A DNA stretch of 64,000 nucleotides from Cephalotus follicularis. Lineage: Eukaryota; Streptophyta; Magnoliopsida; Oxalidales; Cephalotaceae. The notes beneath the pieces were generated by a model. That model was not told the DNA's origin. It saw only the letters and a list, made by a program, of their open reading frames with translations, and made no database searches. This document shows positions 449 through 57,302 of the stretch, piece by piece. Position 1 is the first letter of the stretch; every line of letters begins with the position of its first letter. The DNA lies in contig BDDD01005075.1 in NCBI GenBank assembly GCA_001972305.1, positions 2,609 through 66,608 on the forward strand. The letters are read 5' to 3'. The position numbers were made by a program, and so were the translations under genes.

Positions 449-2440
449 TGGTTACCTTATTCCTTATGTCAAACTTGTTCCAAGTCATAGGTTCACTTTG
501 TGGGCATTAGTGAACCGGATAGACTTGCGCGTATGTTGCTTGCTCATGGAATCGGGGGATGGATTCTCTCACTACCATCTGTGTTGGACACTAGGGCAAA
601 TACGGGGTGCACGCTGGGTGCGTGTACACTGAACAGGACCCGCGTAGGAGACACTGTTTGGATAGTCACTATTCTCGTGTCAGTAGTGATTCCTACTTGT
701 TGCGGTTGTGTATAAGTGATCATCACTTAGCGAGTTTTATAACTCGTCTGATCCTTAGACCTGAGCGACTACTTTATATTGTATGGAGACGGTTATGCTT
801 TGATCTACACCTTACCCAGTCCTTGCGCAGGGCTGGCAATCGGGTGGTCTTTGGGTATGATCGAATCTATACGAATATAAGTGAGTGCGCAATAAGGGAT
901 TGTCACACCTGAGCGAAGGTGATCGACCCTATTATTGTCTGATTATACTTTGGACTTATGAAATCCTTGGCCAACGTTGAGGTAGACTGGAAATTAGATT
1001 TCCGGAGAGTTTACCAAAGGTCCTAGTAATGATCAGATATTTTAGCCATTGAGGTACTATCTAGGGTTGACACATATCCTTACCCTAGTCCTCAATCGGG
1101 GCCAAGTATGACAAGGGATTATAGTACACGCGAACCGACGACTTAGAAAATCTAGAGTTAATGAGGTGTGTATTAAATTATGGGAAAATTAATTAGATTA
1201 ATTTTTCCATCAGGATAATATTAGATATTATTCCTAGAGCATTTAAATCGTCGAGGACTATTTAGAATGGCTAAACCGAGCCCTAGGGGTATTTCGGTAA
1301 TTTATGAACACCTCTCGTTTTGACCAAGTTTTCAAAGGGTCCCTGCCTTATAATATTAGATCTTTAATATGTTGGACATATTAAGTCTTGGTGTCAAATG
1401 TCGGTTGTGTGGATTTTGCATTTTGTGGAAACACATATGCTTGATCTTACTTAACCAATATTTGAAGGGTACAAGAGTTAGACTCTTTATGCTTGACTGG
1501 CCAAAAGGCGTCGATGTCTTTTAGAAAGACGCCGATGCTTTTCCCTGATAAAGACGTCAATGTCTTTTAGAAAGCATCGATGTGCTTTAGTGCCACGTAG
1601 CAAAGGCGTCGACGTCTTTTGGAAGGCGTCGACGTCTTTGAGCAGAACGTGGAACCTGTGCACGAGCCCATTTCGTGGGCACGATTTCTCTCTCATCTCC
1701 AGCAACCATCTCCAGTTCTTGCACGTTTTAGAAATGTGGGAATCATGGCTTCGGACACCCAGGGAGTGAAGGCCATGATCCTATGTGAATGGGAGATTGG
1801 GAGAGAGAATTGTAGGCTAGTTATATGCATTTCTGCAGAAAGTGAAAAAGTTATTTTTTTTACTGGGCAAGAGGCTTCGATTCTCTATGCAGATTGTGTG
1901 TTCCCTTTAGTTGAAATACACCAAGCAAGGCTTATCTAGGGTGGATTGTTTATTGACTTCATTGGTCATAATCAATACTCTTTTTTTAAGCTAAGTGAGA
2001 GAGAGAGTGAGTTCAAGTACTTTGATTAGACTGGTTGGATTGCTTGCTGTTCCTGAGGCTTGGAGAACATCAAGGGAATCTACTCAAGCTTGTAGCGGCA
2101 AAGAAAGAAGGAGCCTTCACCCACTGGTATAACCTTTGGTCCCTCTTCTTCTTGCCATGCTTGTGTGTCACTATTGTTTGCAATGGTGACACCAATTCAA
2201 TTATGTTGATGCTATTGTGATCCATGCAGTATGTGAACGTGCCATTATGGATTGGTTTTGATATATAGGGTGTTCTTCCGCTGTATGTTTATATATTTAA
2301 ATTTTTATTCTATACCCTACACACCTATGTCCTTTTTGGCACCGGATTCGGTTTGTACGATTCCATCAGTGACATGGGACCTCTTGTCCTTTTGTCATTA
2401 AAGAAAACATTCTTTAATACTTTTTTTCCTCTTGCATTCA
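449..2440 (+). mobile_element. K: Ty1/copia-type LTR remnant, plus orientation
   Basis: From about 450 to 720 this matches the reverse complement of the copia LTRs of J and H: the block CAAGTCATAGGTTCAC and the TTTGGATAGTCA block occur in the same order. K is therefore a related LTR in the opposite orientation. It contains a GTCGAC-type motif array at 1508-1635. The first 250 bp or so expected from the J and H LTRs are missing, and their place is taken by the hairpin at 4-448. The right end is unclear: the sequence becomes J LTR by about 2440, and CCCTACACA near 2323 is a possible LTR terminus. No coding region is credible. Confidence 0.55.
1508..1635. repeat. GTCGAC-type palindrome array in K
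   Basis: Six 10-bp units start at about 1508, 1529, 1554, 1574, 1606 and 1626. Spacings are 21, 25, 20, 32 and 20. Units read GCGTCGATGT, ACGCCGATGC, ACGTCAATGT, GCATCGATGT and GCGTCGACGT (twice). Each is followed by a T-rich stretch such as CTTTTAG. Confidence 0.85.
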
Positions 2441-4052
2441 ATGCTCAAGTCAACTCTCTAGCTTCCTAAACACACCTTTCTTTTCCCACCAACTTCTCTT
2501 AAGTTGATAAGTGCCGCGTGTCAGCCTAACATGGTGTCAACGACATTTGTCTCTTCTTATCAAGGAGTCAACGCCAACGATAAGATGAAACAGGCTATCT
2601 CATCCTTTCACAGAGTCAACGCATGCTCTTCATAGCATTAACGAATATAGTCTCTATTTCTAATGGTGTCAACGTATGTTCTTCATAGCATTAACGCCCA
2701 GCGACTTAACTATACATGGCATCAATGCATGATCCTCATGGTGTCGACTCCTAAGGTATAGGATGAGACAATATCTTCTATTTTCAACTCTCTGCTTGGA
2801 ATTTTTCATCGTGGCATTGCATGGATCTTTATCCAGAAAATGAAATAGCCACTAGCAAAGTAACATTTCTCCGATGTCATCCTTTCACTAAATGACATGT
2901 GTCCCATACACGTGTAAGCCTGTTCAAAGTCAAGCAGGACCCGAAAGCATGTTGATCTCTGGTATGATGCTAAATTCCTAGAACATCCCGATTTTTGTTA
3001 CGACTATTCTAACAATCACCGACTATTAAAACAACTCTGGTGTGAATTCCATTCACCCCCTTGATCCGTGTATTACCACGTCTATCAATCATAGTCCAAA
3101 TAGCCAGTACTTTACTCAGTCATCGGTATATGTGTCATGTTTCACTAGTCATACTTGGCTCCGATCACAGTCTAGGGTTTGGATGAATGTCACCTCTAGA
3201 TTTTCTATGATAACTATAAATCTATAAATACACTGAGACTATCGGCAGACCTCCCATGGAAACCTCTCGTTCCCAGTCCACCTATGCTTGATCATGACTT
3301 TTAAGTCTACAATGTACATAGATAAATCGATCCAATCACCCTCAGCATGGGTGTAACAATCCCCTACTGTGCACTCGCTCATACATCTCAATGCAGCTCC
3401 CACAAGACCCAAAGAGAACCCTTTTTCCAGCACGTGGGTTGTGCTGGGGAAGGTGGAAACCAAAGTCAAGCAATTACCACACAATGCATGCTACTCGGTC
3501 AGGTCAAAGGAGACAACGCAGGATATAGACCTACTAGTCACCATAGACTATACACTACCGAGACCTTAGGAATCCTATTGACATTGGGTATTGACTATCC
3601 AAATAGGTTTCCTATTGGTGGGTCCATTCAGTGTCATGCTCTCAGCACGCACCTCACATCGCTTTAGGGATCCACCCAAATGGCAATGAGATAATCGCCC
3701 TCCCTCCCTGGGAGAAGGCATAATATGACAAGTCTTCACGGTTCATCAATTGCCCTAAGAAAGTGAACCTATGACTTGGAACGGTTTGTTAGAAGGAGTA
3801 AGGACCTCATTCTCATAGCCTCCTTGGCACGGGATTCAACCCTCATGGTGTGACAGGGAGGTATATGACATACAGTTAATTGTAAATAATTATTCTATTC
3901 CATTTGGTTTGTTGGGATAGACCATATAGCCTTGACAATATAATTTATATATGCATAAAACAAGAAGGGGATTCAAAATTGTATAAATCAATAGTGTATA
4001 TATACATCCAATGAGCCATATTGTGGCTTACAGGGACACCCCTAACCCGACA
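2441..4052 (-). mobile_element. J: 3' LTR remnant of outermost copia element
   Basis: This matches solo LTR I (25487-33535) along its length, including the motif array, the block near 2890-3250 and the block CATAGGTTCAC (minus strand). It ends at CCCGACA (4052), so the LTR starts TGTCGGG on the minus strand, directly beside a polypurine tract and a copia RNase H remnant. The outer part of the LTR, equivalent to about the first 800 bp of I in window order, is missing where K begins. J is thus truncated at this side. Its other end lies beyond the window, past gypsy E. Confidence 0.8.
2534..2750. repeat. GTCGAC-type palindrome array in J LTR
   Basis: Eight units start at 2534, 2565, 2613, 2635, 2666, 2688, 2719 and 2741. 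Spacings are 31, 48, 22, 31, 22, 31 and 22, so the array behaves as a 53-bp tandem repeat with two motifs per unit. Units include GTGTCAACGA, GAGTCAACGC, GCATTAACGC, GCATCAATGC and GTGTCGACTC. Confidence 0.85.
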
Positions 4053-4064
4053 ATCTCCCACTTG
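4053..4064 (-). promoter_or_regulatory. Polypurine tract of J
   Basis: On the minus strand this reads CAAGTGGGAGAT, the usual Ty1/copia plus-strand primer site, immediately before the LTR start TGTCGGG. Confidence 0.85.
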
Positions 4065-5238: not shown

Positions 5239-7876
5239 TGTTGGAAAGGCATAATCAGGGTTGGAACCTATTTGGACATAAGGGTTGTAGAATACATTTA
5301 AAAAAAAATTAATCCCTACAATGGGATACCCTAATGTGCAAGGTCAAACATTGTTCAAATAGGCCCTAGGATATATAATTAGGGTATCGATTGAACCATC
5401 TAAACATTCCAAGCATGTAGGGTTGGTGGATTGGAGCTGGGAATACTATACCCGAAAATTGATCACTCCAATTTTCCGCACTAGGGTAACACACCAATAC
5501 CCTAACACATTTGCTCCAAACCCTAAACCCAATCCTAGATAAACCCTAAGGGTTTTCTAGTGTACAAAATGGCAGTAATTGGGATTGGGAAGGGTTGCAT
5601 ACCCTGCCCCAGTATCCCGAAATGCAACCATTCCAACACCATAGCACCAAACAAAATTCGGGTTAGGGAATGCACACAAACACCATAGCATGCAACCCTC
5701 GAAACCCGAATTGCAATTCACATACCCTAAGGGTATGGAATGAACATGGAGCCTACAAGAAAACACCAGGGATGGGATGGCAATCCCAACCCTCAACCCA
5801 ACACAAAAAGGATCTATAAACATCACACAATCATAAAGGAAATGTTAGAATTCAAGAACTTAATTCTTTGCCCACATCCTAAAATTGTGTGCTCCTCCAA
5901 ACTTCAAATCAATGAATCCATCTTCACATTAAATCTTCCGCATGCTCACAGCAGCAACAAATGTGAAACAAGATCCCATGAAGAGAAGGTTGGAGTTACA
6001 CCATCTAAACTAATGTTCATCATAAGCGCATATGGAATCCATGAAAGAAACCATCACCACCTATTATGAACTTTGGATGGTGAAAGGGTGATCTATTGTG
6101 ATCATTTTCTCCCTTTAAAGCAAGCTTTCAATGTCTCCATTGATGGAGGAGATGGATGGAAGAAAGGAGAAGGAGAGAGAGACGGGTGGAGAAGAGAATT
6201 AAGAGAAAGTCCAAAAGCGTGTTAAAAGTAAGTCAACAAAAGACATTTTAAATATCTCTTTGCATGCCAATCCGTATATCACACATGACTCACCATCTTC
6301 TCTCATTATTCTCCTCTCTAATAAGGTCACATGGACGGCTACATAATTGATCAAAGGAGTCGTGTGCATTTCCAAATGCAAGGTGACGTATGCTTAGTTG
6401 AAAAGTCAACTAAAGTAGGCTACATTTAGGGCATGAATTTGGGTCATGTTTATTTACCATTCTCTTGAAAATGTTAAGGTCCAATTTTTAGGAAAATGAA
6501 ACCCAAAATTTTGGCCCAATAGGGAATAGAATCCCTCTCCCAATTTCGTACAAATGGCACCCCATAAGCTCTCAACATAAATACGGGAACATTTCATTAT
6601 GTCGATGCTCACACTCACTTCATAAGAAGTAATACATGTCAAGCAAATGAAATATTCTCTATCAAAGTAACATCTCTCTTAGATGCTAACCTCTCACTAA
6701 ATGACATGTCTCTCTCACATCAACCTATTCCAATATAAGGTAGGACCCGAAAGCCTGGTTGGAATTCTGATACAATGATATATTTCCCAAACCATCCCAT
6801 TGTTCTGGTATGACCACCCCAATAGTCTTTAGACCATCTAAATAGTCCCAGTGTGATCTTAAATCACCCCAGGATCCGTGGACCACAAGGAACCACGTCC
6901 ATCATATGTTACCCAGTTCAATAGTGCTTTATCACTGTCATCGGTTTATGTGCCCGTATCCTTTGATATCTCGGCTCTGACCGTGACTAGGGTTTGGATT
7001 AATGTCACCCCTAGGTAAAACGTGATAAATATAATTCTATGAATGCATTGAGACTATAGGAGATGTCCCAGGAAACTGCCTATTCCCAATATCCAATTGT
7101 CTAGCCGGAACTTTAAGTCGTCAATGGTCACATATGTTATAGAGCCTATAACCCTCAACATGGGTGTGATGATCCCGTCTTGCGCACTCGCCTGTACATC
7201 TCATTGGAGCTCCCACAAGGCCCAAATACAACCCTTTTGCCACCACGTGGCTAGTGCTGGGGAAGGCAGAAATCAAAGCCAAGTGATTACTACACAACGC
7301 ATGCCACCTGCTCAAGTCTTAGGATATAACGTATATCAAGTATGATTTACTAGTCCGTTTTGACTAAACACTACCGCGACAATAGGAACTCTTTTGACAG
7401 AGATGTTGACTCCCCAAATAGATAACCTATATTGGGTCGATTCAGTGTCATGCCTCTGCAGGTACCCACATCAACTTTAGGGTAAACCCAAATGGCAATG
7501 AGATTATCCATCGCCCACAGACAAGAGGGCAAGCATAATACGGCAAGTCTTTGCGGTTCATCAATTGAGCTAAAATTGTGAACCTATGACTTGGAACTTT
7601 TGTCATAAGGGAGTAAGGATCTCATTCTCATAACCTCTCAGGCACGAGATCCAACCCTTTACAGACAAAGCGCTATATGTGTATTCAATTGACATGGTGA
7701 TCAACTGATCCGTTGAGATGGTTTGGGATATTACATATAGTCAGATGCCAATATATATTAAATATGCACAATAGAGCACGAATGGAATTAAGAATGTACG
7801 ATTCAAGAGTATGTCATACGTTGAGAACATATGTCTGCAGCCTCCTCATGGCTTACAGGGATGCCATAATCTAACA
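5239..7876 (-). repeat. H: 3' LTR
   Basis: It starts TGTTGGAAAGG and ends CTAACA, which are the LTR termini TG...CA. It is colinear with 22951-25486 plus 33541-33594. Telomere-like AAACCCTA words lie near 5518-5556. From 6640 to 7860 it shares diverged blocks with the J and I LTRs, so these copia families are related. Confidence 0.92.
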
Positions 7877-7888
7877 ATCTCCCACTTC
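7877..7888 (-). promoter_or_regulatory. Polypurine tract of H
   Basis: On the minus strand this reads GAAGTGGGAGAT, directly before the LTR start TGTTAGATTA. Confidence 0.85.
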
Positions 7889-8495
7889 GAGCTCAAGCCA
7901 TAGAGACCTACAGCCTAAGCATTTTGCATTCCCCTGCCTCTTGAGAATTGCGCGTTGCTTTGGTCAGTGAGTCTGCTAAGTTCGCTTACGCTGCGCGACT
8001 CTCTCTTTGGTGACATCTACGCTTGTGATGTTTCCTATATTTCCTCTATAACGTCTCTTTCGAGTCATTTTCATTAAACATGATCTCCATGATCAAATGA
8101 TATTGTTGCTGTATATGTTCGGTGCAGCAATGAGATGCGAGTTCCATGGCCTGTGCTAAAGCCTCCATTAGTGTCATAGTCACCACAACTGGACAAACGA
8201 CAGATGGAATCTCTATAATGTTCAAGCGTGAACATCTGCATCCAAACCACCTACCATTACCGGTATCACAGGTTGCAACATACTTTTATTCCATTGTGGA
8301 GTATGCAGTCCTCGACTGCCACAAACTCCTCCAACTCACACAGCACGTCCATTCAAGATCAACACATATCCTGAAGTGGATTTGTGATCATCCGGATCAC
8401 AATAGAAACTAGAGTCAATCTAACTCTTACGTTTCAATTCACTATCTTCTCCAATTGTCAAGAAAAAATCCTGAGTCTTTCACAGGCATTATGTC
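7889..8495 (-). pseudogene. H: copia RNase H remnant (distal piece)
   Basis: DNA-level similarity to the J RNase H region (4065-4600) is clear. The blocks for the RT-to-RNase H connection and for the RNase H domain are in the same order, but the reading frame is lost and I find no long open frame. It stops at the ATGTC (8491-8495) that duplicates at 18416-18420, where gypsy A is inserted. The sequence resumes at 18421 with the block homologous to J near 4600 (CCCAGTG...GGACT). It was a replication enzyme domain and is now non-functional. Confidence 0.8.
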
Positions 8496-9800
8496 TGTCA
8501 CACCCCATTTTCCACAAAGACAACATATATGGAGATATCAGTTATAAATAATAATCCAGCATTCAACATTAAATGAAATTTCATTAAAGAAAGTAGAAGC
8601 ATTCCATTGTTGGATTATAATAAAATAGTTATCCACACGCAGCCCATACTAGGTGCTTACACGATACAGAACAAGTTATCCTTTACATATTGGAAATGTA
8701 AAATAACAACAACGGAGTATGATCGTTATTACAATAGAAGACATAGTAAATAACAACCTTAAGCAAGATAGAATCTCTCCAATAAAGCTTCAGCAACTTG
8801 ATCAACACCTTCGTCAATCTGAAATTGTAGGGGTTAGCCTTTGTCCTCACTCGGCTAAGTAGGAATAAAGCATGAGAAAGAATATATAAATGTAAACATG
8901 TATGACATTTTATTTTTGAAATAGCATATATAATAAGTATTTCCAATATTTATGAGAAATCATGCCAAGTGGCCACAGACAATACAATTCAGGAATACCG
9001 CACAAGGGTAAAATCAATCAATAAAGTTGTTTGGGTGTCACATGTCGCTAACTCCTAGCACCAATTGCGCACCACCTAACTATCACCCTACACTCCGAAG
9101 ATGATAGATCAGGTCAATTCTGCCAGCATTTAGTGGGCAGGTCACAATCAGGATCTGCATTGCAGATAAGTGTGGTGGAAGCTCTAGCCAACTCCTGGCA
9201 CATAGGACCACCCCGTAGCCAGTGATTTCTCATATCACTCGACCAACGGCAATAACATAAACAAACAATTCAATCAATTCAATAGCAATATTACATATAT
9301 CTATAATATGCAATATAATAGTTGTTTTCTTTTAGAAACATTTAACAATTTAGTGACCGTACCTCCCGTTTTGAGTAAACGGTATTCAATACAGTAGTGG
9401 TACCTCTTATTGGAGGAAAATCAGTAACTTAGTGACAGTAACTTTTCATTTGGAAAACAATAGTAAGAAAATCCATATTTGTGCTTATAGCACTAGTTGA
9501 TTTAATCCTTGAACTTAAGTGAGACAATAGTGTTTTGAACACATACATTACTTATAACAGCAGCATAATATAGCAACTTAACAATAGGAACAATAGCAAT
9601 TCAAGGATTCAATAAAGTATCTAAGCACAACCATAGTCGTTCCTACGCAATTCATACAATGGATGCATAAGTTGTTTAATATTTGAAATATAACTACCTA
9701 TGACCAGGATTGAATGTTACAATCATCCTATGTGGAGGCCAGGGTAATTACATATCACTTAAGCCTAAACAACAGCTAATATCAGTAATTTGTCACTTAA

Positions 9801-9913
9801 CAGTCGGTTGTTCATAAGAATAGCCTGCTGTTTTCATTAAGCAGTCAGTTGTTTGTCCTTAACAGTTGGTTGTTTACATTGAGCAGTCGACTGTTAGGTT
9901 AAACAGTCGACTG
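9801..9913. repeat. Palindrome array 1 in A 3' LTR (leader side)
   Basis: Six units start at 9801, 9821, 9842, 9863, 9884 and 9904, with spacings 20, 21, 21, 21 and 20. Two are perfect CAGTCGACTG; the others are CAGTCGGTTG, TAGCCTGCTG, CAGTCAGTTG and CAGTTGGTTG. Spacing matches A2, B, C1 and C2 exactly. On the minus strand it lies downstream of the TATA-like site. Confidence 0.92.
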
Positions 9914-10547
9914 TTTTTGTCCAGAAATGTTAGGCAGTAGTTTAACCAAAATAGAGTATGCAAGTTCAACTTCCAATTAAAACAAAATAATAACACGCAA
10001 TCACAGAGAAATTATCCAGACATGCTATACATATCATATCTTCAAAAACATGTCAATACCCCTACCTCAAATGCTATCCCGAAATCAAATTGAGTTGATT
10101 TCTCTCTTTAGTGTCCAAAGCTCTTTCACTCAACAATCCTCCAATCTCAGCAATTAATCTATATAGTAGCATGTTTACATGCATATACATTAAAACCTGT
10201 AAGTTATTTTGTTTATCTAATCATGATAACAACTATAATCCAATCAGTAGCTTATAGTAATCTCCTAAGCTTCAAACTCTTCTTTGCCAATTTACTTAAT
10301 TCAATCCTCAACTCCAAGCTTTATCATTTCATGTTCATGTTGACAATGGATATATATAGCTAACATCAGTATGTTGAACCACTAACAATCTCAATATCAG
10401 TATAACTCGGATTGGTGACTTACCAGGAAATCAAAGCTTCAAAATCTCTTTGAACTCAAGCCTTCAACATGCACTCCAAGAATTCCTTCAGCAAGAGTTC
10501 CTCTATTTTCTCAATGATTTCTAACACTCACATTCAACTCTCACAGT

Positions 10548-10558
10548 TGATATAGAGG
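10548..10558 (-). promoter_or_regulatory. TATA-like box, A 3' LTR
   Basis: On the minus strand this reads CCTCTATATCA. The same site is at 17854 (A), 31935 (B), 42490 and 49950 (C), always 260-280 bp downstream of palindrome array 2. Functional assignment is inference. Confidence 0.6.
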
Positions 10559-10832
10559 TTTTAAAAACCTTAGAACTCGTCAGATCCCATTGATTCAGCC
10601 TTATCCTTTTTCTCTCTCTCTCTCTCTCATCCACATTTCTTTGTTTTGTTTCTTTCTTCAGTGTTTGCAGGTGTGCAGAGATGGAGAACACATGCAAGGC
10701 ACTCAGTCTGCATTGCCAACAGCTGGCGACAATTCCTTTGCATGGCTAACATGTCCCTATACACATGTTAATCAATTGCCACGCCTCTGCCCTGTTTGAC
10801 CTGCCATGCACAGACACCTGTCTGAACTCGAC

Positions 10833-10910
10833 CAGTCGACTATCTTTATCCGGCAGTCGGTTGTCCACTTATGGCAGTCCAGTCGACTGTTACCCTATGA
10901 CAGCCGGCTA
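10833..10910. repeat. Palindrome array 2 in A 3' LTR (U3)
   Basis: Units start at 10833, 10854, 10880 and 10901, with spacings 21, 26 and 21: CAGTCGACTA, CAGTCGGTTG, CAGTCGACTG and CAGCCGGCTA. The array lies upstream of the TATA-like site on the minus strand. Confidence 0.9.
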
Positions 10911-11060
10911 TTGGTTGCTTATTTTGGTTACTTAAGCTTATTCGCTCAATTAAATCAATAGCCGCAAGTGATATAACAATTGGACATTAAAATTCAATGT
11001 AATGCATATTTTATTCATCAAGAGTACAATATACACTAATTGCAAATTGCGGTTATTACA

Positions 11061-15790: not shown

Positions 15791-17102
15791 TGCCGTCACA
15801 CCCCGTTTTCCACAAAGACAACATATATGGAGATATCAATTATAAATAATAATCCAGCATTCAACATTAAACGAAATTTCATTAAATGAAAGAAGAAGCA
15901 TTCCATTGCCAGATTATAATTAAATAGTTATCCGCACGCAGTCCATACTACGTGCTTACACGATACAGAACAAGTTATCCTTTACATATTAGAAATGTAA
16001 AATAACAACAACGGAGTATGATCGTTATTACAATACAAGACATAGTAAATAACAACCTTAAGCAAGATAGAAGCTCTCCAATAAAGCTTCAACAGTGCTT
16101 GACCAACACCTTCGTCAATCTGAAATTGTAGGGGTTAGCCTTTGTCCTCACTTGACTAAGTAGGAAAAAAGCATGAGAAAGAATATATAAATGTAAACAT
16201 GTGTGACAGTTTATTTTTGAAATAGCATGTATAATAAGTATTTCCAATATTTGTGAGCAATCATGCCAAGTGCCCATAAACAATACAATTCACGAATACC
16301 GCAGAAGGGTAAAATCAATTAAGACAGTGGTTTGGGTATCACATGTCGCTAACTCCTAGCACCAACTGCGCAGCACCTAACTATCACCCTACACTCCGAA
16401 GATGATAGATCAGGTCAATTCTGCTGGCATTTAACAGGCAGGTAACAATCAGGATCTACATTGCAGATCAGTGTGGTGGAAGCTTTAGCCCACTCCTGGC
16501 ACACAGGACCACCCTGTAGCCAGTGATTTCTCCTATCACTCGACCAACGGCAATAACATAGACAAACAATTCAATCCATTCAATAGAAATATTACATTTA
16601 TCTATAATATGCAATATAATAGTTGTTTTCTTTTAGAAAGATTTAACAGTTCAGTGACCGTACCTCTCGTTTGGAGGAAACGGTATTCAATACAGTAGTG
16701 GTACCTCTCATTGGAGGAAAATCAGTAACTTAGTGACAGTAAGTTTTCATATGGAATAAAATCGTAAGAAAATCCATATTTGTGCTTATAGCAGTAGTTG
16801 ATTTAATCCTTGAAATTAAGCGAGACAATAGTGTTTTGAACACATACACTATCTTATAACAGCAGAATAATATAGCAGCTTAACAACATGAACAATAGTA
16901 ATTCAAGGATGCAATAAAGTATCTAAGCATAAGCATAGTCGTTCTTACGCAATTCATACAATGGATGCATAAGTGGTTTAATATTTGAAATATAACTACC
17001 TATGGCCAGGATTGAATGTTACAATCATCCTATGTGGAGGCCAGGGTAATTACATATCACTTAAGCCTAAACAACAGCTAATATCAGTAATTTGTCAGTT
17101 AA

Positions 17103-17215
17103 CAGTTGACTGTTCATAATAATAGCCGACTGTTTTCATTAAGCAGCCGACTGTTTATCCTTAATAGTCGGCTGTTTACATTGAGCAGTCGACTGTTAGG
17201 TTAAACAGTCGACTA
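17103..17215. repeat. Palindrome array 1 in A 5' LTR
   Basis: Six units start at 17103, 17123, 17144, 17165, 17186 and 17206 (20, 21, 21, 21, 20): CAGTTGACTG, TAGCCGACTG, CAGCCGACTG, TAGTCGGCTG, CAGTCGACTG and CAGTCGACTA. Confidence 0.92.
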
Positions 17216-17853
17216 TTTTTGTCCAGAAAGGTTAGGAAGTACTTTAACCAAAATAGAGTATGCAAGTTCAACTTTCAATTCAAACCAAAATAATAACATG
17301 AAATCACAGAGAAATTATCCAGACATTCTATACATATCATTTCTTCTAAAACATGTCAATACCCCTACCTCAAATGCTATCCCGAAATCAAATTGAGTTG
17401 ATTTCTCTCTTTAGTGTCCAAAGCTCTTTCACTTTAACAATCCTCCAATCTCAGCAATTAATCTATATAGTTGCATGTTTACATGCTTATACATTAAAAC
17501 CAGTAAGTTGTTTGATTTATCTAATCATGATAACAACTATAATCCAATCAGTAGCTTATAGTAATCTTCATAAGCTTCAAACTCTTCTTTGCCAGTTTAC
17601 TTAATTCAATCCTCAACTCCAGGCTTTATCATTTCATGTTCATGTTGATAGTGGATATATATAGCTAACATCAGTATGTTTAATCCACTGACAACCTCAA
17701 TATCAGTATAACTCGGATTGGTGACTTACCAGGAAATCAAAGCTTCAAAATCTCTTTGAACTCAAGCCTTCAACATGCACTCCAAGAATTCCTTCAACAA
17801 GAGTTCCTCTATTTTCTCAGTGATTTCTAACACTCACATTCAACTCTCACAGC

Positions 17854-17864
17854 TGATATAGAGG
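17854..17864 (-). promoter_or_regulatory. TATA-like box, A 5' LTR
   Basis: On the minus strand this reads CCTCTATATCA, preceded on that strand by a GA-repeat run (17913-17933). This is the copy that would drive the element transcript. Confidence 0.6.
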
Positions 17865-39876: not shown

Positions 39877-40040
39877 CAGTCGACTGCATCTTGAAACAGT
39901 CGACTGTTTGGCCTTGCACAGTCGACTGGACCCCTGTCCCACTCGACTGGATTCAACCCAGTTTCAGTAGTCGGCTGCCGATGTTGTGTAGTCGACTGCC
40001 ACCCTATGAGTAGTCGACTGGACCCTGTTACAGTCGACTG
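39877..40040. repeat. Palindrome array in D 5' LTR
   Basis: Eight units start at 39877, 39897, 39919, 39940, 39968, 39989, 40011 and 40031 (20, 22, 21, 28, 21, 22, 20). Four are perfect CAGTCGACTG, with TAGTCGACTG twice, CACTCGACTG and TAGTCGGCTG. It lies about 690 bp downstream of the TATA-like site. Confidence 0.94.
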
Positions 40041-41614
40041 GAATTGTCCAGAAAAATTTCTGGTTTTAAGTTTTGTAATCCGTTTGTTCGTCTAATGATT
40101 TGGAGTCTGTTTAAAACACTGTTAAATTACTGTTTGATGTTTGGAAGTGATATTTGAATACTTATATGAATGATATTGCATCTCTTAGATTTTTGTGCTT
40201 CGAGGGACTTTTAAATTGTTGATCAATTCTTCTATCTTTGTTGTGATCGCTTAAGGTACGGATTGTCACACCGCGTTATTCGGTTCGATAACATTAAGAC
40301 AAGCATATGTGGTGATATCAAGAATAAGCATACTTAATCCAGCATTTCGTTCAATATCTCAAATTAAAATATATGCGGAAGCATTCATCTGGATTATAAC
40401 ATAAGTCATTCGCACGCAGCCCATACAACGTGCAGGTACACACAACAGCAATATCCTTTAAACATAAGGAAAAGTACAGCAGTCACGGGGTATGAACCGT
40501 TCATTACAATTCAATACATCAACATAAACAATAACCTTAAAAGTTAGACAGAAGCTCTCCAAGCTTCAGCAGCAAGCTCCAAACGTCCTTGCTCAATCTG
40601 TAATTGTAGGGGTTAGCCGTTGTCCTCACTTGGCTAAGTAGGAAGATAATGCATGCTAAGGAATATATGGATGCAATATGTATGATAGTTTATATAAAAA
40701 TAACATTTAGTATCCCAATGAATAAGCAACCATGCCAAGTGGCCATGGACAGTACAATGCAAGTATAATGCACAAGTGTACAATCAATTCATACAGTGGT
40801 TTGGGTGTCACATGTCGCTAACTCCTAGCACCAACTGTGCACCACCTAACTATCACCCTATGCACCGAGGATGACAGAACAGGTAACATTTACTACCGTC
40901 GTTGGCGGGTAGTTTAACAGTAAGTTCTGCAAGGCAGACATTTGAGGTGATACTCTGGCCAACTCCTGGCATCCAGGATCAATTCCGATCAATTCCGTAG
41001 TCCGTGATATCCTCCATCACTCGACTACGGCAATAAACATAGACAAACAATTCAAGCATTTCAATAGCAATATTACATATGTTAACAATATGCAATATAA
41101 AGGTTGTTTTCTTTAGAAACATATAACAATTCATTTATCGTACGTCTCATGTGAGGAAAACGACATCAATTCAGTAGTGGTTTCCAGTTTGGGAAACAAA
41201 ATAGTAGGTACCTCTCATGTAGGAGGAAAATCAGTAGTTCATTTAGCATTAGTCTTTCAATTTGAAAATGATAGTTAATATCATAATTTTGGGTACATAG
41301 CCCATAGTTGGTTTCCAATCTTGAAACATCAGTGGTAGTGGTGTTAATAGCACCAAAACAGTATATACTAATATGAGGTAGCATATACAGTAACAATAAT
41401 CGAAAGCAGTAGTAATTCAAGGAATTACGAGGAAATAGCATTCCATAGTCATTCATGTGCAACTTTCACAAGAAGTGCGTACATTGTTTTAATCTTGAAA
41501 TGTAATTGTATATGAGGCCATGATAGACTGTTCTAATCATCCATGTGAAGGCCAAGTTAATTACATTTCAAATGGAGGCCTTAACAGGACTTATATCAGT
41601 AATTTTACCCAGGA

Positions 41615-41727
41615 CAGTCGGCTACTCTCAAGAACAGTCGGCTGTCTTGATTGAGTAGTCGACTGTCTTGTATTGACAGCCGACTGGATACATTGAGTAG
41701 TTGACTGTCATGAAGAAAAATCGAATG
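41615..41727. repeat. Palindrome array 1 in C 3' LTR
   Basis: Six units start at 41615, 41635, 41656, 41677, 41698 and 41718 (20, 21, 21, 21, 20). They include CAGTCGGCTG, TAGTCGACTG, CAGCCGACTG and TAGTTGACTG. The last unit (AAATCGAATG) is the most decayed but stays in phase. Confidence 0.9.
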
Positions 41728-42489
41728 CTCCTGCCAAGAAATGCAGGCAGTAGCAGTTTATGTGCAATTCAAAGTCTAATGCCAGTCAATTCAATGCAAA
41801 CAGAAATATAACATACATGATATGCATATAATATCTTCCATAACATATCACTACCCCTACCTCAATTGCTATCCCAAGATCAATTGGGTTTGATCTTCCT
41901 CTTTAAGTTTTCCAAGCTTTCACCAACCAACCCTTCAATTCCAGCAAGATTAATCTATACAATGCATGTTATGGACACATGCATTAGTACCAGAATTTCA
42001 GTAACCTTATGACACTCCAAACAACAGTAGTTAATCATTAGTTCCTTAAGTTTCATACTATCCCTTTTTACCACATCTCTAGCCCTTTGTGTCCAACTAC
42101 ATCAATTCAGTGCCTTTTAAACATGTGGACAGAAGATGTGCATGTTTATACCTAAGGGAATCGGTAAGCTTATCATGGCAACTAACAACAACTACCGTCC
42201 AATTTAGAGATTATAATCTTCACCTTACTTGAACCATATGCTACATTCCATATCAATTCAATTCTAGAAGTTTGTTAACCTTAACCATGTTAACAGAAGA
42301 TTAAACATTCCCCCAGATACATAATCATAATAACAACAGAGAGTTCGGATTGAGAACTTACCAAGAGAGACCAAAGCTTCAAAGGCTCCTTCTTTGAGTT
42401 CTCTACATCCTTCCAAAGCAAGCCTTCCCAATTCCAGCAATTCTCCTCATTCAGTGTTTTCCAACACTCACCTTCAGCTCCTGGACAAC

Positions 42490-42500
42490 TGATATAAAGG
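42490..42500 (-). promoter_or_regulatory. TATA-like box, C 3' LTR
   Basis: On the minus strand this reads CCTTTATATCA. Confidence 0.6.
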
Positions 42501-42761
42501 CTTTGAGACTTTGAATTTGCCAGGCACCATTACTCAGCCTCTCCCCCTTTCTTCTCTCTCTCACATGCACCTCTTTTCTTCACCTTTCTCTCTTCAATTT
42601 TGCAGGTTGCAGGTCTGCAATTGCAGATGGAATAGAGGGCATGCAAGCACTCTAATTTGCATGTTCTGGCAGGTGGTGACATGCATTTTGCATGCATGCC
42701 ACATTTAGAACACTTGGCATCCCTGTCACTGCGCCTGCCAGGTACCTGTGCAGGCCCATTC

Positions 42762-42840
42762 CAGTCGACTGGATGCATGGAGCAGTCAACTGCCCACTCA
42801 CGCCTCAGACAGTCGACTGGTCCCCTGTGATAGTCGGCGG
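42762..42840. repeat. Palindrome array 2 in C 3' LTR
   Basis: Units start at 42762, 42783, 42810 and 42831 (21, 27, 21): CAGTCGACTG, CAGTCAACTG, CAGTCGACTG and TAGTCGGCGG. Confidence 0.92.
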
Positions 42841-43008
42841 TCGAGCTGTTTTAGGGTTTCATAAGTTGGACACTTCACCAACTGTACCTCCATTCTTCCC
42901 ACGCAATTTCCAACACAATTTTATAATAATTGAACATTAAATTCAAATGAGTGCACATTTTATTAATCAATATTACAATGTACACGAATTGAATTTGCGG
43001 TTATTACA

Positions 43009-45240: not shown

Positions 45241-45258
45241 ATGATCCAGCCAAAATTC

Positions 45259-47732: not shown

Positions 47733-49073
47733 TGTCACACCCCGTTATTCGGTTCCATAACATTAAGACAAGCATATGTGGTGATATCAAGAATAAGCGT
47801 AAATAATCCGGCATTTCGTTCAATATCTCAAATTAAAATATATGCGGAAGCATTCATCTGGATTATAACATATGTCATCCGCACGCAGCCCATACTACGT
47901 GCAGGTACACACAACAGCAATATCCTTTAAACATAAGGAAAAGTACAGCAGTCACGGGGCATGAACCGTTCATTACAATTCAATACATCAACATAAACAA
48001 CAACCTTAAAAGTTAGACAGAAGCTCTCCAAGCTTCAGCAGCAAGCTTCGAACGTCCTTGCTCAATCTATAATTGTAGGGGTTAGCCGTTGTCCTCACTT
48101 GGCTAAGTAGGAAGATAATGCATGCTAAGGAATATATGGATGCAATATGTATGACAGTTTATATAAAAATAACATTTAGTATCCCAATGAATAAGCAACC
48201 ATGCCAAGTGGCCATGGACAGTACAATGCAAGTATACCGCACAAGGGTACAATCAATTCATACAGTGGTTTGGGTGTCACATGTCGCTAACTCCTAGCAC
48301 CAACTGTGCACCACCTAACCATCACCCTATGCACCGACGATGACATAACAGGTAACATTTACTACCGGCGTTGGCGGGTAGTTTAACAGTAAGTTCTGCA
48401 AGGCAGACATTTGGGGTGATACTCTGGCCAACTCCTGGAACCCAGGATCACTTCCGTAGTCCGTGATATCCTCCATCACTCAACTACGACAATAAACATA
48501 GACAAACAATTCAAGCATTTCAATAGCAATATTACATATGTCAACAATATGCAATATAAAGGTTGTTTTCTTTAGAAACATATAACAATTCATTTATCGT
48601 ACGTCTCATGTGAGGAAAATGACATAAATTCAGTAGTGGTTTCCAGTTTTGGAAACAAAACAGTAGGTACCTCTCATGTAGGAGGAAAATCAGTAGTTCA
48701 TTTAGCATTAGTCTTTCAATTTGAAAATGATAGTTAATATCATAATTTTGGGTACATAGCCCATAGTTGGTTTTCAATCTTGAAACATCAGTGGTAGTGG
48801 TGTTAATAGCACCAAAACAGTATATACTAATATGAGGTAGCATATACAGTAACAATAATCGAAAGCAGTAGTAATTCAAGGAATTACAAGGCAATAGCAT
48901 TCCATAGTCATTCATGTGCAACTTTCACAAGAAGTGCGTACATTGTTTTAATCTTGAAATGTAATTGTATATGGGGCCAAGATAGACTGTTCTAATCATC
49001 CATGTGAAGGCCAAGTTAATTACATTTCAAATGGAGGCCTTAACAGGACTTATATCAGTAATTTTACCCAGGA

Positions 49074-49186
49074 CAGTCGGCTGCTCTCAAGAACAGTCGG
49101 CTGTCTTTGTTGAGTAGTCGACTGTCTTGTATTGACAGCCGACTGGATACATTGAGTAGTTGACTGTCATGAAGAATAATCGAATG
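49074..49186. repeat. Palindrome array 1 in C 5' LTR
   Basis: Units start at 49074, 49094, 49115, 49136, 49157 and 49177 (20, 21, 21, 21, 20). Confidence 0.92.
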
Positions 49187-49949
49187 CTCCTGCCTAGAAA
49201 TGCAGGCAGTAGCAGTTTATGTGCAATTCAAAGTCTAATGCCAGTCAATTCAATGCAAACAGAAATATAACATACATGATATGCATATAATATCTTCCAT
49301 AACATATCACTACCCCTACCTCAATTGCTATCCCAAGATCTATTGGGTTTGATCTTCCTCTTTAAGTTTTCCAAGCTTTCACCAACCAACCCTTCAATTC
49401 CAGCAAGATTAATCTATACAATGCATGTTATGGACACATGCATTAGTACCAGAATTTCAGTAACCTTATGACACTCCAAACAACAGTAGTTAATCATTAG
49501 TTCCTTAAGTTTCATACTATCCCTTTTTACCACATCTCTAGCCCTTTGTGTCTAACTACATCAATTCAGTGCCTTTTAAACGTGTGGACAGAAGATGTGC
49601 ATGTTTATACCTAAGGGAATCAGTAAGCTTATCATGGCAACTAACAACAACTACCATCCAATTTAGAGATTATAATCTTCACCTTACTTGAACCATATGC
49701 TACATTCCATATCAATTCAATTCTAGAAGTTTGTTAACCTTAACCATATTAACAGAAGATTAAACATTCCCCCAGATACATCATCATAATAACAACAGAG
49801 AGTTCGGATTGAGAACTTACCAAGAGAGACCAAAGCTTCAAAGGCTCCCTCTTTGAGTTCTCTAAATCCTTCCAAAGCAAGCCTTCCCAATTCCAGCAAT
49901 TCTCCTCAATTCAGTGTTTTCCAACACTCACCTTCAGCTCCTGGACAGT

Positions 49950-49960
49950 TGATATAAAGG
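49950..49960 (-). promoter_or_regulatory. TATA-like box, C 5' LTR
   Basis: On the minus strand this reads CCTTTATATCA. It would drive the C transcript. Confidence 0.6.
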
Positions 49961-50221
49961 CTTTGAGATGTTGAATTCGCCAGGCACCATTACTCAGCCT
50001 CTCTCCCTTTCTTCTCTCTCTCACATGCACCTCTTTTCTTCACCTATCTCTCTTCAATTTTGCAGGTTGTAGGTCTGCAATTGCAGATGGAATAGAGGGC
50101 ATGCAAGCACTCTAATTTGAATGTTCTGGCAGGTGGTGTCACGCATTTTGCATGCATGCCACATTTAGAACATTTGGCATCCCTGTCACTGCGCCTGCCA
50201 GGTGCCTGTGCAGGACCATTC

Positions 50222-50300
50222 CAGTCGACTGGATGCATGGAGCAGTCGACTGCCCACTCACGCCTCAGACAGTCGACTGCTCCCCTGTGACAGTCGGCTG
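50222..50300. repeat. Palindrome array 2 in C 5' LTR
   Basis: Units start at 50222, 50243, 50270 and 50291 (21, 27, 21). Three are perfect CAGTCGACTG and one is CAGTCGGCTG. Confidence 0.93.
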
Positions 50301-50960
50301 TCGAGCTATTTTAGGGTTTCATAAGTTGGACACTTCACCAACTGTACCTCCATTCTTCCCAAGCAATTACCAACACAATTTTATAATAATTGGACATTAA
50401 ATTCAAATGGGTGCACATTTTATTAATCAATATTACAATGTACACGAATTGAATTTGTGGTTATTACATGGATCTTCGTTCCTTGATATACTCTGGTGAT
50501 TTTATAAAAATAAATCAGTTATATGTTTTTGTGAAAATGTACGGATTCTTCGTTCTTGGCTTATTCCTTCGGTTTTACTAAAATGAATTTAAATATGTTT
50601 TCATGTTAGAACCCTTATTTAAACTATATTATGTCTTTTAGTTTTTGACTTAGAATTATGTTAAGCTTTTGGTTTATGTTTAACCTTCCAGATTATATTT
50701 AAGTTTTAGATTATGAATAAAGATTTCAGACTATTTATTAGATTACATGGTTATGTTTAGACCATCACGCAATTCGAATAATAGATGAGTTAATATTTTG
50801 ATAGTAAGAATAAAGGCGAACCTTGATTTATAGTTAAATATGAATATATGCTAAGTTATAATTTGATAAAAAGAATAAAATTGAGCCATGTTATAAGATC
50901 AGTTATGAATAGTCTAGGATTAGGACCCGTGATGACTCCCTCCGAATCGGGGGTGTTACA

Positions 50961-51333: not shown

Positions 51334-53393
51334 TGTAATACCCCGTTCGTTCACGTGCATTTTTCGGATTTTGAATTTGATTTATTGGTTGTGTTGGCAT
51401 ATTTTGTTGTGGCATAATGTGTTCTTTGGGTTATGTGAATTTTAACTTAGGACTTTTCGTATTTATTAGAATATGAATGTTGTAAAAGCAAAAACTTATT
51501 GTTTTGTATTTTAAAATCAGTTTTTAAAATGATAATATGGTTGGTGAATATTATTTTGGGCTTTTATGTTTTAGGCTTAAAAACGTTAATTTTGGGCTGT
51601 GGTATATTGGTTGGACTATGTACGTGAATAAGTAAAATAAATTGAATTATATTTTGTATAAATATAATATCGGTTTTTATTATTATTTCGGCCTATTTTA
51701 ATTTATGAGCTATATGATAATATAATTTTCGGGCTTTTATCACTTAGGCTAAATAATACCATCTTTGGGCTTTTGCTAAATTATTGGAATAGGGATTATG
51801 GGAAAGATAAAATCAATTATTTGTATTGTAAATTAGTTTAAATTAGTTTTATTTATTATAAATGGCAAATAGTTTTATTAAGGAATAAAACCTTATTTTT
51901 GGTTAAAGGCTTATATTTTTCCCTTTTATTTCTTTCCCTCTCCATGTCTCTCACGTATTCTTCCTTCTTGCTGCCCAAACCGATTTCTTTCCTTCTTCCT
52001 CTCCCTCAATCCCGAATTGTGTGCCTCTTTCCCTATTCTAACAGATTTTGGATTCCTTTTCTGCATTACCATGACCTAAATTACCTTTTTCATATTCTAT
52101 ATGTATGCTATATGTTCATTGTTGTGCCTCCATTGCTTATCTCTCTCCTTGAGCCGAACCTGCATGATTAGAAGTTGTTTTTGTCTTCATTGCTTCATTA
52201 AATCAGGTTTGTTATCATCCACTGTTATGGTTTAGCATTTAGTTTTGTGATCAAAGTCTTTTTGCATGATTGGTTGCTAGTATGTTTTGTTTTTTTGATT
52301 TTCTGCAACCATGGTTTCTATACCTATCAACATGCTTTAGGTAGATGATACATACTGGTTTTGATTAAGGATAATGATTAAAGATAGAAAACTTGATCAT
52401 ATAAGCATGCATGCAATGAATTGAAATTGCTTCTCTTTAAAGAAAGATCACCCATTGCATAAACTTTTTGATTCTGGATGTTTAAATGCCACGGTTAAGT
52501 CACATAAATCTTGTTTAAATGTTGGTAACCATCTGGTAATGTTGTAATATAGTTTTGACAGAAAATTAGAATTGAATTGCTGTGTTTTTGCTGTTCTGTC
52601 GCCCAGAACAGTCGACTGCCTCTTGAAACAGTTGACTGTTTGGCCTTGCATAGTCGACTGGACCCCTGTCCCACTCGACTGGATTCAACCCAGTTTCAGT
52701 AGTTGGCTGCCGATGTTGTGTAGTCGACTGCCACCCTATGAGTAGTCGACTGGACCCTGTTACAGTCGACTGGAATTGTCCAGAAAAATTTCTGGTTTTA
52801 AGTTTTGTAATCCGTTTGTTCGTCTAATGATTTGGAGTCTGTTTTAAACACTGTTAAATTACTGTTTGATGTTTGGAAGTGATATTTGAATACTTATATG
52901 AATGATATTGCATCTCTTAGATTTTTGTGCTTCGAGGGACTTTTAAATTGTTGATCAATTCTTCTATCTTTGTTGTGATCGCTTAAGGTACAGATCTTCG
53001 TTCCTTGATATACTCTGGTGATTTTAGAAAAATAAATCAGTTATATGTTTTTGTGAAAATGTACGGATTCTTCGTTCTTGGCTTATTCCTTCGGTTTTAC
53101 TAAAATGAATTTAAATATGTTTTATTATGTTTAAGTTTTAGATTATGAATAAAGATTTCAGACTATTTATTAGATTACATTGTTATGTTTAGACCATCAC
53201 GCAATTCGAATAATAGATGAGTTAATATTTTGATAGTAAGAATAAAGATGAAACCTTGATTTACAGTTAAATATGAATACATGCTAAGTTATAATTTGAT
53301 AAAAAGAATAAAATTGAGCCATGTTATAAGATCGGTTATGAATAGTCTAGGATTAGGACCCGTGACGACTCCCTCCGAATCGGGGGTGTTACA
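51334..53393 (+). repeat. D: 3' LTR
   Basis: It starts TGTAATACCCC after the polypurine tract and ends GGGGGTGTTACA before TSD CCCGT. A TATA-like site is at 51910. Confidence 0.94.
52609..52772. repeat. Palindrome array in D 3' LTR
   Basis: Eight units in the same order and spacing as 39877-40040. A few differ by C-to-T changes in the core (GTCGAC to GTTGAC). Confidence 0.93.
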
Positions 53394-54917: not shown

Positions 54918-56740
54918 TGTAACGCCCCCGACCCGAGTCCACTTTATGCTCAAAGCGAGCCTTGAGGAATCGATGCGTTACGTGGGGCAAACCATTAACC
55001 ATAAAATAGTTTAATCATTTAACGATCCATTAACCATTCAATTTTTAAGTTAGATTTAAAACCTAACATCATTACTCAACGGAAACATCACATCATATTC
55101 AATAGCTTCAAAGGATCACAATATACTTATAACTTTAAACACCGAATTTCAAAGTATCATATTCTCATTATCATGATCGTTACTAATACCTTTGCATGTG
55201 TACATCGCTTATTATATGACATTTCACAGCAGAAAACCTAAACTTATTACATGATTAGACATTCATATTCGTTTCTCACCTTTACCATTAACTTCTCATA
55301 CTCTCAAGTATGTTCAATAACTTTTGACATCATCGTCTTACTTGAAAACATCATAAACTATAGCATTCATTTCCTTACTTTAAAATCTATACATCATCTA
55401 TCATAAAATGTTACGCAACAGAAAACATTAACGCATGATATGAAGCATTAAACTTCATAGCATAACATACTTCCTTTTCGATACTTCGTTTACGAACTTC
55501 TTCCAAAGCTCGTACTTTAACGTTTGACGTGTCCTGGAAAAGCATTTGAAAACAAGACATTGAAAGGAGTGAGCTCAAATAGCCCAGTAAGGATCGTAGT
55601 CATAAAACATCATTGGAATCCATTGTTTTTGATAATCTTTATCAAAACGTTTGCAATCATACATTTCAAAACATCATTGAAAACCATCTTCTAGTTTTAT
55701 AAAACTAGTACATTTCCAAAATCATTCTTTTGCTGGTATATAGTCTAGCCATACTTGAAAACATTATTAAAATCATTTTCTGGTATATTTTGTAAAACCA
55801 AAACATTTCACATTCATTTTCTTTATCTGATCATATCTCATGATTCAGATGATTTCATAAATAACTGATGGGTCATAAAACATAAAGGACCCAATGAACC
55901 ATTTCAACATTCTCTTCACCGGGGCATTGTGCACTCTTCGATTACTATCCTTACATCACATGCATGTCCGTGAGCACTATACGCTCCATTAACATCGAGC
56001 ATCTCGCTCCATTAACATTGAGCATCTCACTCCATTAACATTAATCTTTACTAGATTAATCCTCCCTGGATCGCAATCCAGGAGTTGTTCATATCAGTTC
56101 GTTACCATTTCCATTTCATTAAATCATTTCATAAAACATTTCTTAATACTTTGAGTATAACATTTCTTTCACAATTCATAGAACATTTTCATCACTTTGA
56201 GTAATTCGACTCAAATTATTCATAAAACAGCTTTGCATAACATTTCTAAATCTTGAATTTCATATAGAAAAAAACACTTTCAGAGAAAACTTAAAACATA
56301 AACATTAAAGTAGACATCTTCACGAATTCAGAAAGCTCAAGTTCATAAAAATTGGTTGAGAATCGAATCTGTTATGAATTTTTAAAGTGGTTGGTTCCAT
56401 ATGAAAACAGGACATGAGCAGTAAAATGAAACATGGATTCTCATCAAGAATTCGACAGAACTTCGAGAAGCATAAAACATATCAGTTAAAGAAGACATCT
56501 TGAAGTTTCTAAAACATTAAAGTATTTGAAATTTCATCAAGAATTGAGCATGATTTGAATAAAACAATATGTTGTATAATTTTGCAGTAAAACAGAGGAA
56601 CTTTGATAAAAATGGGTATGGAATTTCCTTACCCTACTTTGATCTCCTTCTCTCTTTCTCTCCCATGAATTTTCCTCTTATTCCCAGCAAAAAAACTCTT
56701 CCTTTCCTCAGTCAAAAATGACTGAACTCAGCCTTCATTG

Positions 56741-56752
56741 CCTATAAATAGG
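56741..56752 (-). promoter_or_regulatory. TATA-type site of F
   Basis: CCTATAAATAGG reads as a TATA element on either strand. On the inferred minus orientation it lies about 220 bp downstream of the motif array. Confidence 0.5.
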
Positions 56753-56970
56753 CTGGTAGCTTGGGGAGCAAGTCTTCTCCCTTTCTCTCATGACTCAACA
56801 CTCTTAGTTGCCCATGTGCTAAATTTAATCCAACCAAATGGTGAAACTTGTTATATCATCTGAAAACATCTCAAATCCTTCTCCCATGGCCTTCCACGTG
56901 TCCATAATTAATGAATTTAACTCACAAAAGGACAAAAAGATAGACTTTGGCAACTAGTCCGCAGCTCAAA

Positions 56971-57302
56971 ACGTCGGCGCTTCTCTTCTAAGCGTCGCCG
57001 CTTACGGCTTTGACTTAAGTTCTTCAACTCTCTCCTCGACTAAAGCGCTGACGCTTCTCTTTCAAGGGTCTCCGCTTTCGAGTCTCATCCAAGTCAACAG
57101 GGCATACTTTGACTTCAAAGCATCGAAGCTTACATTTAGGGCATCGTCAGTTTCACCAAGCGTTGTCGATTTCATCCAAGCGTCATCGGTTAGAGGAATT
57201 TGTCCAAATTGAAAATGCACTGGTTTTAACAGGCGTTAGAAGAGGTCCAAGCGTCAAAGGTTAACTATCAAAGCGTCGCCGCTTTACTTGGAACCGTCGG
57301 CG
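56971..57302. repeat. GCG-N4-CGC motif array in F
   Basis: Units start at 56971, 56992, 57045, 57066, 57120, 57141, 57160, 57180, 57233, 57251, 57273 and 57293. Close spacings are 18-22, wide spacings 53-54. The best units are GCGTCGCCGC, ACGTCGGCGC and GCGCTGACGC. The central GTCGAC has drifted towards GTCGCC, but the GCG and CGC ends and the spacing persist. Confidence 0.82.

Follow-up and report, generated by a model that had tools for sequence, protein, structure and literature searches.

Arrays of a GTCGAC-core palindrome in gypsy and copia long terminal repeats of a Cephalotus follicularis contig

The DNA under study, 64,000 nucleotides of the Cephalotus follicularis contig BDDD01005075.1 (hereafter the window), consists of plant long terminal repeat (LTR) retrotransposons in a nested arrangement, as determined by self-comparison, Pfam matches, the context of primer-binding sites (PBS) and polypurine tracts (PPT), and target-site duplications (TSD). 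LTRs of both gypsy and copia elements carry arrays of a short dyad-symmetric palindrome with a GTCGAC core. The sites fall into two classes, and site class does not follow LTR ancestry. In three of five between-family comparisons, or three of the four made within class 1, the palindrome is clearly better kept than the surrounding DNA. The arrays are likely clusters of binding sites for a protein, probably one of the host. Elements are designated by letter (Table 1), with the suffix 5 or 3 denoting the 5' or 3' LTR of a pair.

Palindrome arrays and their two site classes

The window contains 49 copies of GTCGAC against 5.1 ± 2.0 expected from 60 dinucleotide shuffles, ranking it first among the 64 six-base palindromes. 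Site pairs within one mismatch and 19-23 bp apart numbered 52, compared with 1.8 in shuffles (maximum 6). A decay-tolerant 10-mer caller, with an array defined as at least three sites and 100 shuffles as the control, yielded 119 sites, 103 of them in 19 arrays, whereas the shuffles gave 19.3 sites and 0.04 arrays (maximum 1). LTRs, comprising 40,461 bases, accounted for 113 of the 119 sites; the remaining 23,539 bases held six. Each array-bearing LTR surpassed the maximum of its own 100 shuffles. The number of sites was 8-12 for every LTR of A, B, C, D, L, E and J2, seven for J3, five for F and four for J1. When clustering was ranked for all 64 palindromes without reference to the motif, GTCGAC came first in A3, A5, B3, B5, C, D5 and D3. 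The array units sit within loose 21-bp tandem repeats. CpG per 100 bp was higher in the array than in the rest of its own LTR for all 13 arrays measured, and the CpG observed/expected ratio was elevated in 11 of the 13, the exceptions being D and L.

An earlier reading of this DNA made from the sequence alone (the sequence-only reading) had described arrays of a GTCGAC core common to gypsy and copia LTRs. Both the clustering, relative to dinucleotide-shuffled controls, and the sharing between gypsy- and copia-coding elements are confirmed, the latter by Pfam matches and per-LTR site calls. Its count of 17 arrays is replaced by 19, a figure that depends upon the caller. Among the carriers that it listed, gypsy E and copia J hold; the array of F is weak, with three clustered sites against none in 100 shuffles, and the LTRs of copia I (5239-7985 and 22951-25486) possess one and no sites respectively and no array, although the identity of the "I" of that reading is uncertain. 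The stretch 34690-37309 lies beside copia coding sequence but belongs to gypsy E as its 3' LTR.

The second most over-represented palindrome across the window was GCATGC, with 35 copies against 11.6 expected. Four copies of GCATGCATGC are present in the LTRs of B and D (39673, 42690, 50150 and 52405).

Class 1 sites, of consensus CAGTCGACTG, occur in the gypsy-type LTRs A, B, C, D and L, where 72 sites were called in eight LTRs (both members of a pair counted). Class 2 sites, of consensus GCGTCGACGC, occur in gypsy E, LTR F and the copia LTRs J1, J2 and J3. No LTR mixes the classes, save for a single stray in J1 and another in J2. The extended consensuses are dyad-symmetric with arms that differ by family (CAG/CTG or GCG/CGC), and an AAG...CTT element further out in the class 2 consensus is common to E, F and J3. 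Persistence of spacing, suggested by the sequence-only reading, holds for class 1, where sites are mostly 20-22 bp apart with some at 27-28 bp, but is looser in class 2 (20-22, 31-32 and other distances). Helical phasing as proof of binding to one face of the DNA was rejected, the class 1 spacing fitting a 6.9-bp period better than one of 10.5 bp.

The same reading attributed most core variants to CpG decay, which describes class 2 better than class 1. GTTGAC/GTCAAC was found at 8 of 38 class 2 sites against a single GCCGAC, whereas the commonest class 1 variants are GTCGGC/GCCGAC (15/72 sites, against 6/72 for GTTGAC/GTCAAC), which are T-to-C or A-to-G changes and not CpG decay. The variation at T4/A7 (23 changes over the 72 class 1 sites) is likewise not deamination. 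At the non-deaminating positions A2 and T9, all 31 sites of A5, B5 and C are invariant, while T4 varies (0.77). Cytosines of the class 1 consensus, as read from the sequence, lie in CG and CHG contexts only.

The lack of correspondence between class and ancestry rests on two observations: E is of ABC type yet class 2 at both of its array positions, and the ABC and D/L LTRs share their arrays alone. A profile of the A/B/C LTRs matched E in the last 300 positions of the profile (E=7.8e-12), and the start of the E LTR is common with A and B (TGTAATGCC at 37309). Class 2 sites make up the E arrays, at LTR positions 224-353 and 1174-1489, and class 1 sites the arrays of A, B and C, at about 150-300 and 1148-1463; both E arrays thus differ in class from their relatives. 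In D and L the same profile matched only the arrays, and did so in both orientations. Units appear to have been gained and lost between LTR copies.

Conservation, decay and candidate explanations

Between C and B5, 90 of 100 palindrome positions were the same, compared with 1775 of 2406 outside (0.900/0.738, p=9.9e-5). Corresponding values were 99/121 and 1449/2248 for C-A5 (0.818/0.645, p=5.1e-5) and 63/80 and 1040/1627 for D3-L (0.787/0.639, p=0.0059). A sliding-mask control gave p <=0.002 for all four C-B5 and C-A5 masks, 0.018 for L-D3 and 0.067 for D3-L. Relative to the intervening spacers the palindromes were again better kept, at 0.900 against 0.731 for C-B5 and 0.836 against 0.562 for C-A5.

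Within the two LTRs of pair A the direction was reversed, with 83/103 palindrome positions the same against 2316/2461 outside (0.806/0.941, p=4.6e-6). Pairs B (86/90 against 2573/2645) and D (77/80 against 1940/1979) lean as A does without reaching significance. When the pairs were pooled, 246 positions inside sites were the same and 27 different, the corresponding counts outside being 6829 and 256 (odds ratio 0.34, p=5e-6); the ratio of ratios gave p=1.8e-6 for A, 0.051 for B and 0.13 for D. Transitions made up 25 of the 27 within-pair changes inside sites, an excess expected for methylated CG and CHG cytosines. Conservation between families together with loss within pairs fits selection while the elements were active followed by decay through methylation.

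Taken together, the explanation that we consider somewhat probable is that the LTR arrays are clusters of sites bound by a dyad-recognising, and hence putatively dimeric, DNA-binding protein, and that this protein is probably a transcription factor supplied by the host. The sequence patterns make both protein binding and the host origin of that protein likely. The shared host factor proposed in the sequence-only reading is supported in part, a host origin of the protein being likelier than an origin in the element, given that the core is common to two superfamilies and that the scanned pieces of A and B contain gag-pol only: in a scan of seven sense-strand pieces, a subset of the open reading frames (ORFs), six matched gag-pol and one (15238-15732) had no match. 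An antisense frame of 188 amino acids opposite the gag of B (47062-47625, + strand) had no Pfam match. The bound factor would drive or shield transcription of the element, with the arrays acting as an enhancer. In copia J2 a TATA box, TATAAAAGG, follows the main array at a distance of about 45 bp, and a further site pair lies beyond it. Unrelated families would have arrived at a common core through the availability of one factor, or factor family, to them all, and, as units appear to be gained and lost, a family could exchange CAGTCGACTG for GCGTCGACGC when the preference of the factor or the pressure of silencing changes.

Several results weigh against this interpretation. Conservation was not significant between B5 and A5 (81/113 against 1556/2376, 0.717/0.655, p=0.19; sliding masks 0.06 and 0.27), where sites taken from one row only gave p=0.0066 or 0.32, depending on the direction. 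It was absent between J1 and J2 (77/110 against 1207/1578, p=0.13), so that selection is shown for class 1 only and not for class 2. Homogenisation between units could mimic conservation. Among the LTR pairs only A is significant alone, and the lean of pair B disappears when sites are taken from B3 alone (78/80 against 2581/2655, 0.975/0.972). GTCGAC ranks sixth for clustering in L and between 4 and 25 in E3, F, J1, J2 and J3; the class 2 LTRs, in which sites are more decayed, are led by A+T-rich or other palindromes. The site scorer was itself tuned to the motif. A TATA box just past every array was rejected as a general feature, since it was seen in J2 only, and no TATA box of the J2 kind was seen after the arrays of the gypsy LTRs. 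All results come from a single 64 kb window in which the element copies are degraded.

It is unlikely that the Tekay-like LTRs simply inherited one ancestral array that outlived its surroundings, with the copia arrays arising separately. The arrays of A, B and C can be aligned, as can those of D and L, and the inner arrays of A, B, C, D, L and E lie similarly far from the LTR start (about 980-1490). Plain descent, which the sequence-only reading had offered as a refutation of its own proposal, can account for what A, B and C have in common, and likewise D and L, but neither for the class difference of E nor for the class 2 arrays of copia J; furthermore, six array pairs between the ABC and D/L LTRs lack spacer similarity. 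Copying of the array between families by recombination or template switching, the exchanged module of the same reading, would account for the presence of one motif in non-homologous LTRs and for the extended AAG...CTT consensus common to E, F and J3. It is disfavoured and rather improbable. After masking of the palindromes, spacers were similar in three of 24 array pairs (A1-B1, B1-C1 and D-L; 150 shuffles per pair) and in none of the 13 pairs whose LTRs have no known homology (lowest p 0.12). The homologous-LTR pairs A2-C2, E1-C1, E2-C2 and J2-J3 were also negative; for old events, therefore, the test is weak, and it disfavours recent exchange only.

A function at the RNA level, in which the palindromes fold or dimerise the transcript for packaging or as a source of small RNA, as proposed for maize Sireviruses, is improbable. 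Five of eight arrays folded at z <=-3.3 (to -7.8), compared with -2.0 to +0.7 for six control stretches, but folding was rejected as evidence because repeated palindromes must fold, and the E and J2 arrays gave only -1.0 to -2.6. If RNA pairing were under selection, an excess of C-to-T and A-to-G among sense-strand changes would be expected. Counts within sites were instead balanced (C-to-T 26 against G-to-A 26; T-to-C 13 against A-to-G 10), and a DNA site fits better. Anti-silencing by an element-encoded protein that would attach to the arrays and strip them of methylation, in the manner of VANC in VANDAL transposons, is very improbable. It is favoured by the class switch in E, by the resemblance to VANC targets as tandem short non-coding motifs that diverge together between relatives (PMC5735166), and by an extra ORF said to be present in active sunflower Tekay elements (PMC12844716, in part). 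The scanned subset of ORFs described above speaks against it, and sharing of the core with copia would require a shared factor. Least probable are neutral tandem repeats without function, which would suit the loose 21-bp repeats, the unit gains and losses between copies and the lack of conservation in J1-J2 and B5-A5, but not the palindromes that outlast the rest of the LTR in three between-family comparisons, their faster change after insertion in pair A or the same core in unrelated LTRs.

Returning to binding by a host factor, a more specific version can be put forward only tentatively: one plant factor family would have been captured independently by Tekay gypsy and non-Sirevirus copia elements, giving arrays of methylation-sensitive dyad sites (CHG-CG-CHG or CG-CG-CG) with concerted class switching, an LTR counterpart of the VANC arms race conducted through a host protein. 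If this is true, one host factor would be a common switch for many repeats of plant genomes, and its removal would directly test retrotransposon firing. The reversed pattern, kept between families and lost within pairs, would provide a simple sequence-only test for functional LTR sites in any plant genome.

Elements of the window

Table 1. LTRs of the window and their palindrome arrays (window positions)
Feature	Position	Strand	Arrays	Evidence
Gypsy A 3' LTR, Tekay-like	8496..11060	-	class 1, 9801-9913 and 10769-10889	self-BLAST; TSD ATGTC
Gypsy A 5' LTR	15795..18415	-	class 1, 17103-17215 and 18077-18265	self-BLAST; PBS at 15790
Gypsy B 3' LTR	40264..43008	-	class 1, 41615-41707 and 42762-42819	self-BLAST; pol and weak chromodomain match
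Gypsy B 5' LTR	47733..50468	-	class 1, 49074-49166 and 50222-50300	self-BLAST
C, solo LTR of A/B type	29901..32517	-	class 1, 31055-31167 and 32218-32345	TSD GTTTA
D 5' LTR	38602..40263, remainder 50470-50960 beyond nested B	+	class 1, 39877-40040	self-BLAST; TSD CCCGT
D 3' LTR	51334..53393	+	class 1, 52609-52772	self-BLAST
L, D-type LTR split by C	27933..33517	-	class 1, 29711-29874, and site at 32529	self-BLAST
Gypsy E 3' LTR (low end approximate), ABC-type by ends	34690..37309	-	class 2, 35822-36022 and 36958-37087	
F, solo LTR inside E	54918..57482	-	weak class 2, 56971-57054	TSD TAGGA
Copia J2 LTR (bounds approximate)	25487..27932	-	class 2, 26342-26625, and pair 26172-26202	self-BLAST
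Copia J1 3' LTR, start 4052 (low end uncertain)	2300..4052	-	class 2 sites, 2666-2728	PPT AGTGGGAG at 4062
Copia J3, J-type LTR (bounds approximate)	219..2299	+	class 2, 1508-1635	self-BLAST
Copia I 3' LTR	5239..7985	-	no array	self-BLAST
Copia I 5' LTR	22951..25486	-	no array	self-BLAST; PBS at 22948

Gypsy A is nested in the coding region of copia I, and gypsy B in the 5' LTR of D, where the flanks CGGAT/TGGAT match at four of five positions. A and B carry gag, protease, reverse transcriptase, RNase H and integrase domains (Pfam); their Chromo scores, 19.3 bits for B and 15.8 bits for A, both fall under the 25.1 cut-off, and the Tekay label also rests on LTR length and ends that we take to be typical. 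The gag-protease ORF of gypsy B had as its best hit, among the at least 120 matches listed, a Cephalotus follicularis sequence (85% identity over 66% of the query).

D consists of an LTR, 373 bp and a second LTR, with PBS-like and PPT-like signals on the strand opposite to its neighbours (38602-53393), and is apparently non-autonomous. The putative gypsy assignment of D, L and F, which have no coding part, derives from their ends, together with the PPT flank for D and length for F. E is read as a single gypsy element that D and F interrupt (37309-38577 and 53399-59194). A D-like LTR, N (about 59200-62460), abuts the gag end of E, where the E 5' LTR would be expected; the site caller found no palindrome array in it. 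Solo LTR C interrupts the palindrome array of L between two L sites, and in this one case the array may have served as an insertion target.

A near-perfect inverted repeat at the window edge (4-448; 94% self-complementary over about 450 bp) is likely a foldback element or resembles a miniature inverted-repeat transposable element. Short tandem arrays unrelated to the palindromes occur at 63636-63828 and 59610-59926 (30/90-bp and about 17/21-bp units).

A search of IMG/VR with the paired-site pattern matched 10 loci, nine of which have only 0-3 sites within one mismatch. Across about 310 bp, the remaining contig (L004:57-367) contains five copies of CAGTCGACTG with at most one mismatch, interspersed with similar decayed words; a plant-like context was not seen at this locus. 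No relative of the gypsy B reverse transcriptase was found in IMG/VR.

Comparison with known systems

Palindromic repeated motifs were described by Bousios et al. 2010 (PMC2829016) in 13 Sireviruses, a copia group, and stated there to be Sirevirus-specific and absent from classic copia elements. Table 3 of that paper gives the Vitis motif CGGTCGACCG, which has a GTCGAC core, and the Tnd-1 motif ACAATCGATTGT, with a TCGA centre. The present arrays resemble these motifs, as the relevant part of PMC2829016 describes them, in the many copies of a short dyad palindrome within LTRs, in the position of the array upstream of a TATA box (here in J2 only) and in the presence of at least eight copies in each of the A, B, C, D, L, E and J2 LTRs, though not in those of J3, F or J1. 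They differ in their carriers, which are Tekay-like gypsy elements and a copia with neither the Sirevirus PPT nor the linker at its J1 junction, and in the absence of the CGG-CCG signature from the family consensuses, a signature that the published Tnd-1 motif also lacks (PMC2829016, same part). At J1, the one junction to which this applies, the Sirevirus PPT octamer AGGGGGAG, placed 10 bp upstream of the 3' LTR with several linker copies, has no counterpart nearby; the J2 junction is cut by L. J1 has a single AGTGGGAG at 4062, one of the two commonest PPT variants of classic copia elements (PMC2829016). Nor is there a long Sirevirus linker from pol to the 3' LTR (average 1.5 kb), the J1 frame ending at 4071 and the LTR starting at 4052. 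The copia I 5' LTR/PBS junction reads CA AGTGGTATCAGAGC, which fits the Sirevirus form of CA/ATTGG or AGTGG followed by TATCAGAGC, a fit judged without comparison to classic copia elements.

Repeated enhancers occur in the U3 of the plant elements Tnt1 and Tto1, and the arrays resemble these as putative repeated activator sites. The dehydration-responsive element/C-repeat (DRE/CRT) has the core RCCGAC. This string is present on one strand in 18 of the 35 class 1 cores that are not GTCGAC, whereas class 2 variants are mostly not DRE-like (one GCCGAC of 38); the resemblance is one of sequence only and serves as a lead and not a test.

The CpG-rich stretch inside a Tekay LTR recalls the LTR CpG islands of Del/Tekay elements, although PMC4029996 found none in eudicots and its main text mentions neither palindromes nor tandem repeats. 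The nearest behaviour is that of VANC targets, short motifs in the non-coding DNA of VANDAL transposable elements that are amplified in tandem and switch type jointly from one relative to another (PMC5735166, PMC10398659, both in part). There, however, the carriers are DNA transposons, the binder is encoded by the element and the motifs are of 8-9 bp (YAGTATTAC, AGTTGTCC; PMC5735166), whereas no binder gene was found in the scanned pieces of A and B, a subset of the ORFs of degraded copies. A palindrome common to copia elements and Helitrons in maize (PMC10760457, in part) provides a precedent for sharing across superfamilies.

Published literature containing the CAGTCGACTG string yielded nothing on retrotransposons among the matches listed. 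The kind of array is already known, and the core itself is in print in the Vitis motif CGGTCGACCG. Among the literature matches listed, what appear to be new are the arrays in Tekay-like gypsy elements and in a copia element (J1) that fails the Sirevirus PPT and linker tests, a core shared across superfamilies within one genome, the concerted difference in site class and the reversed conservation test.

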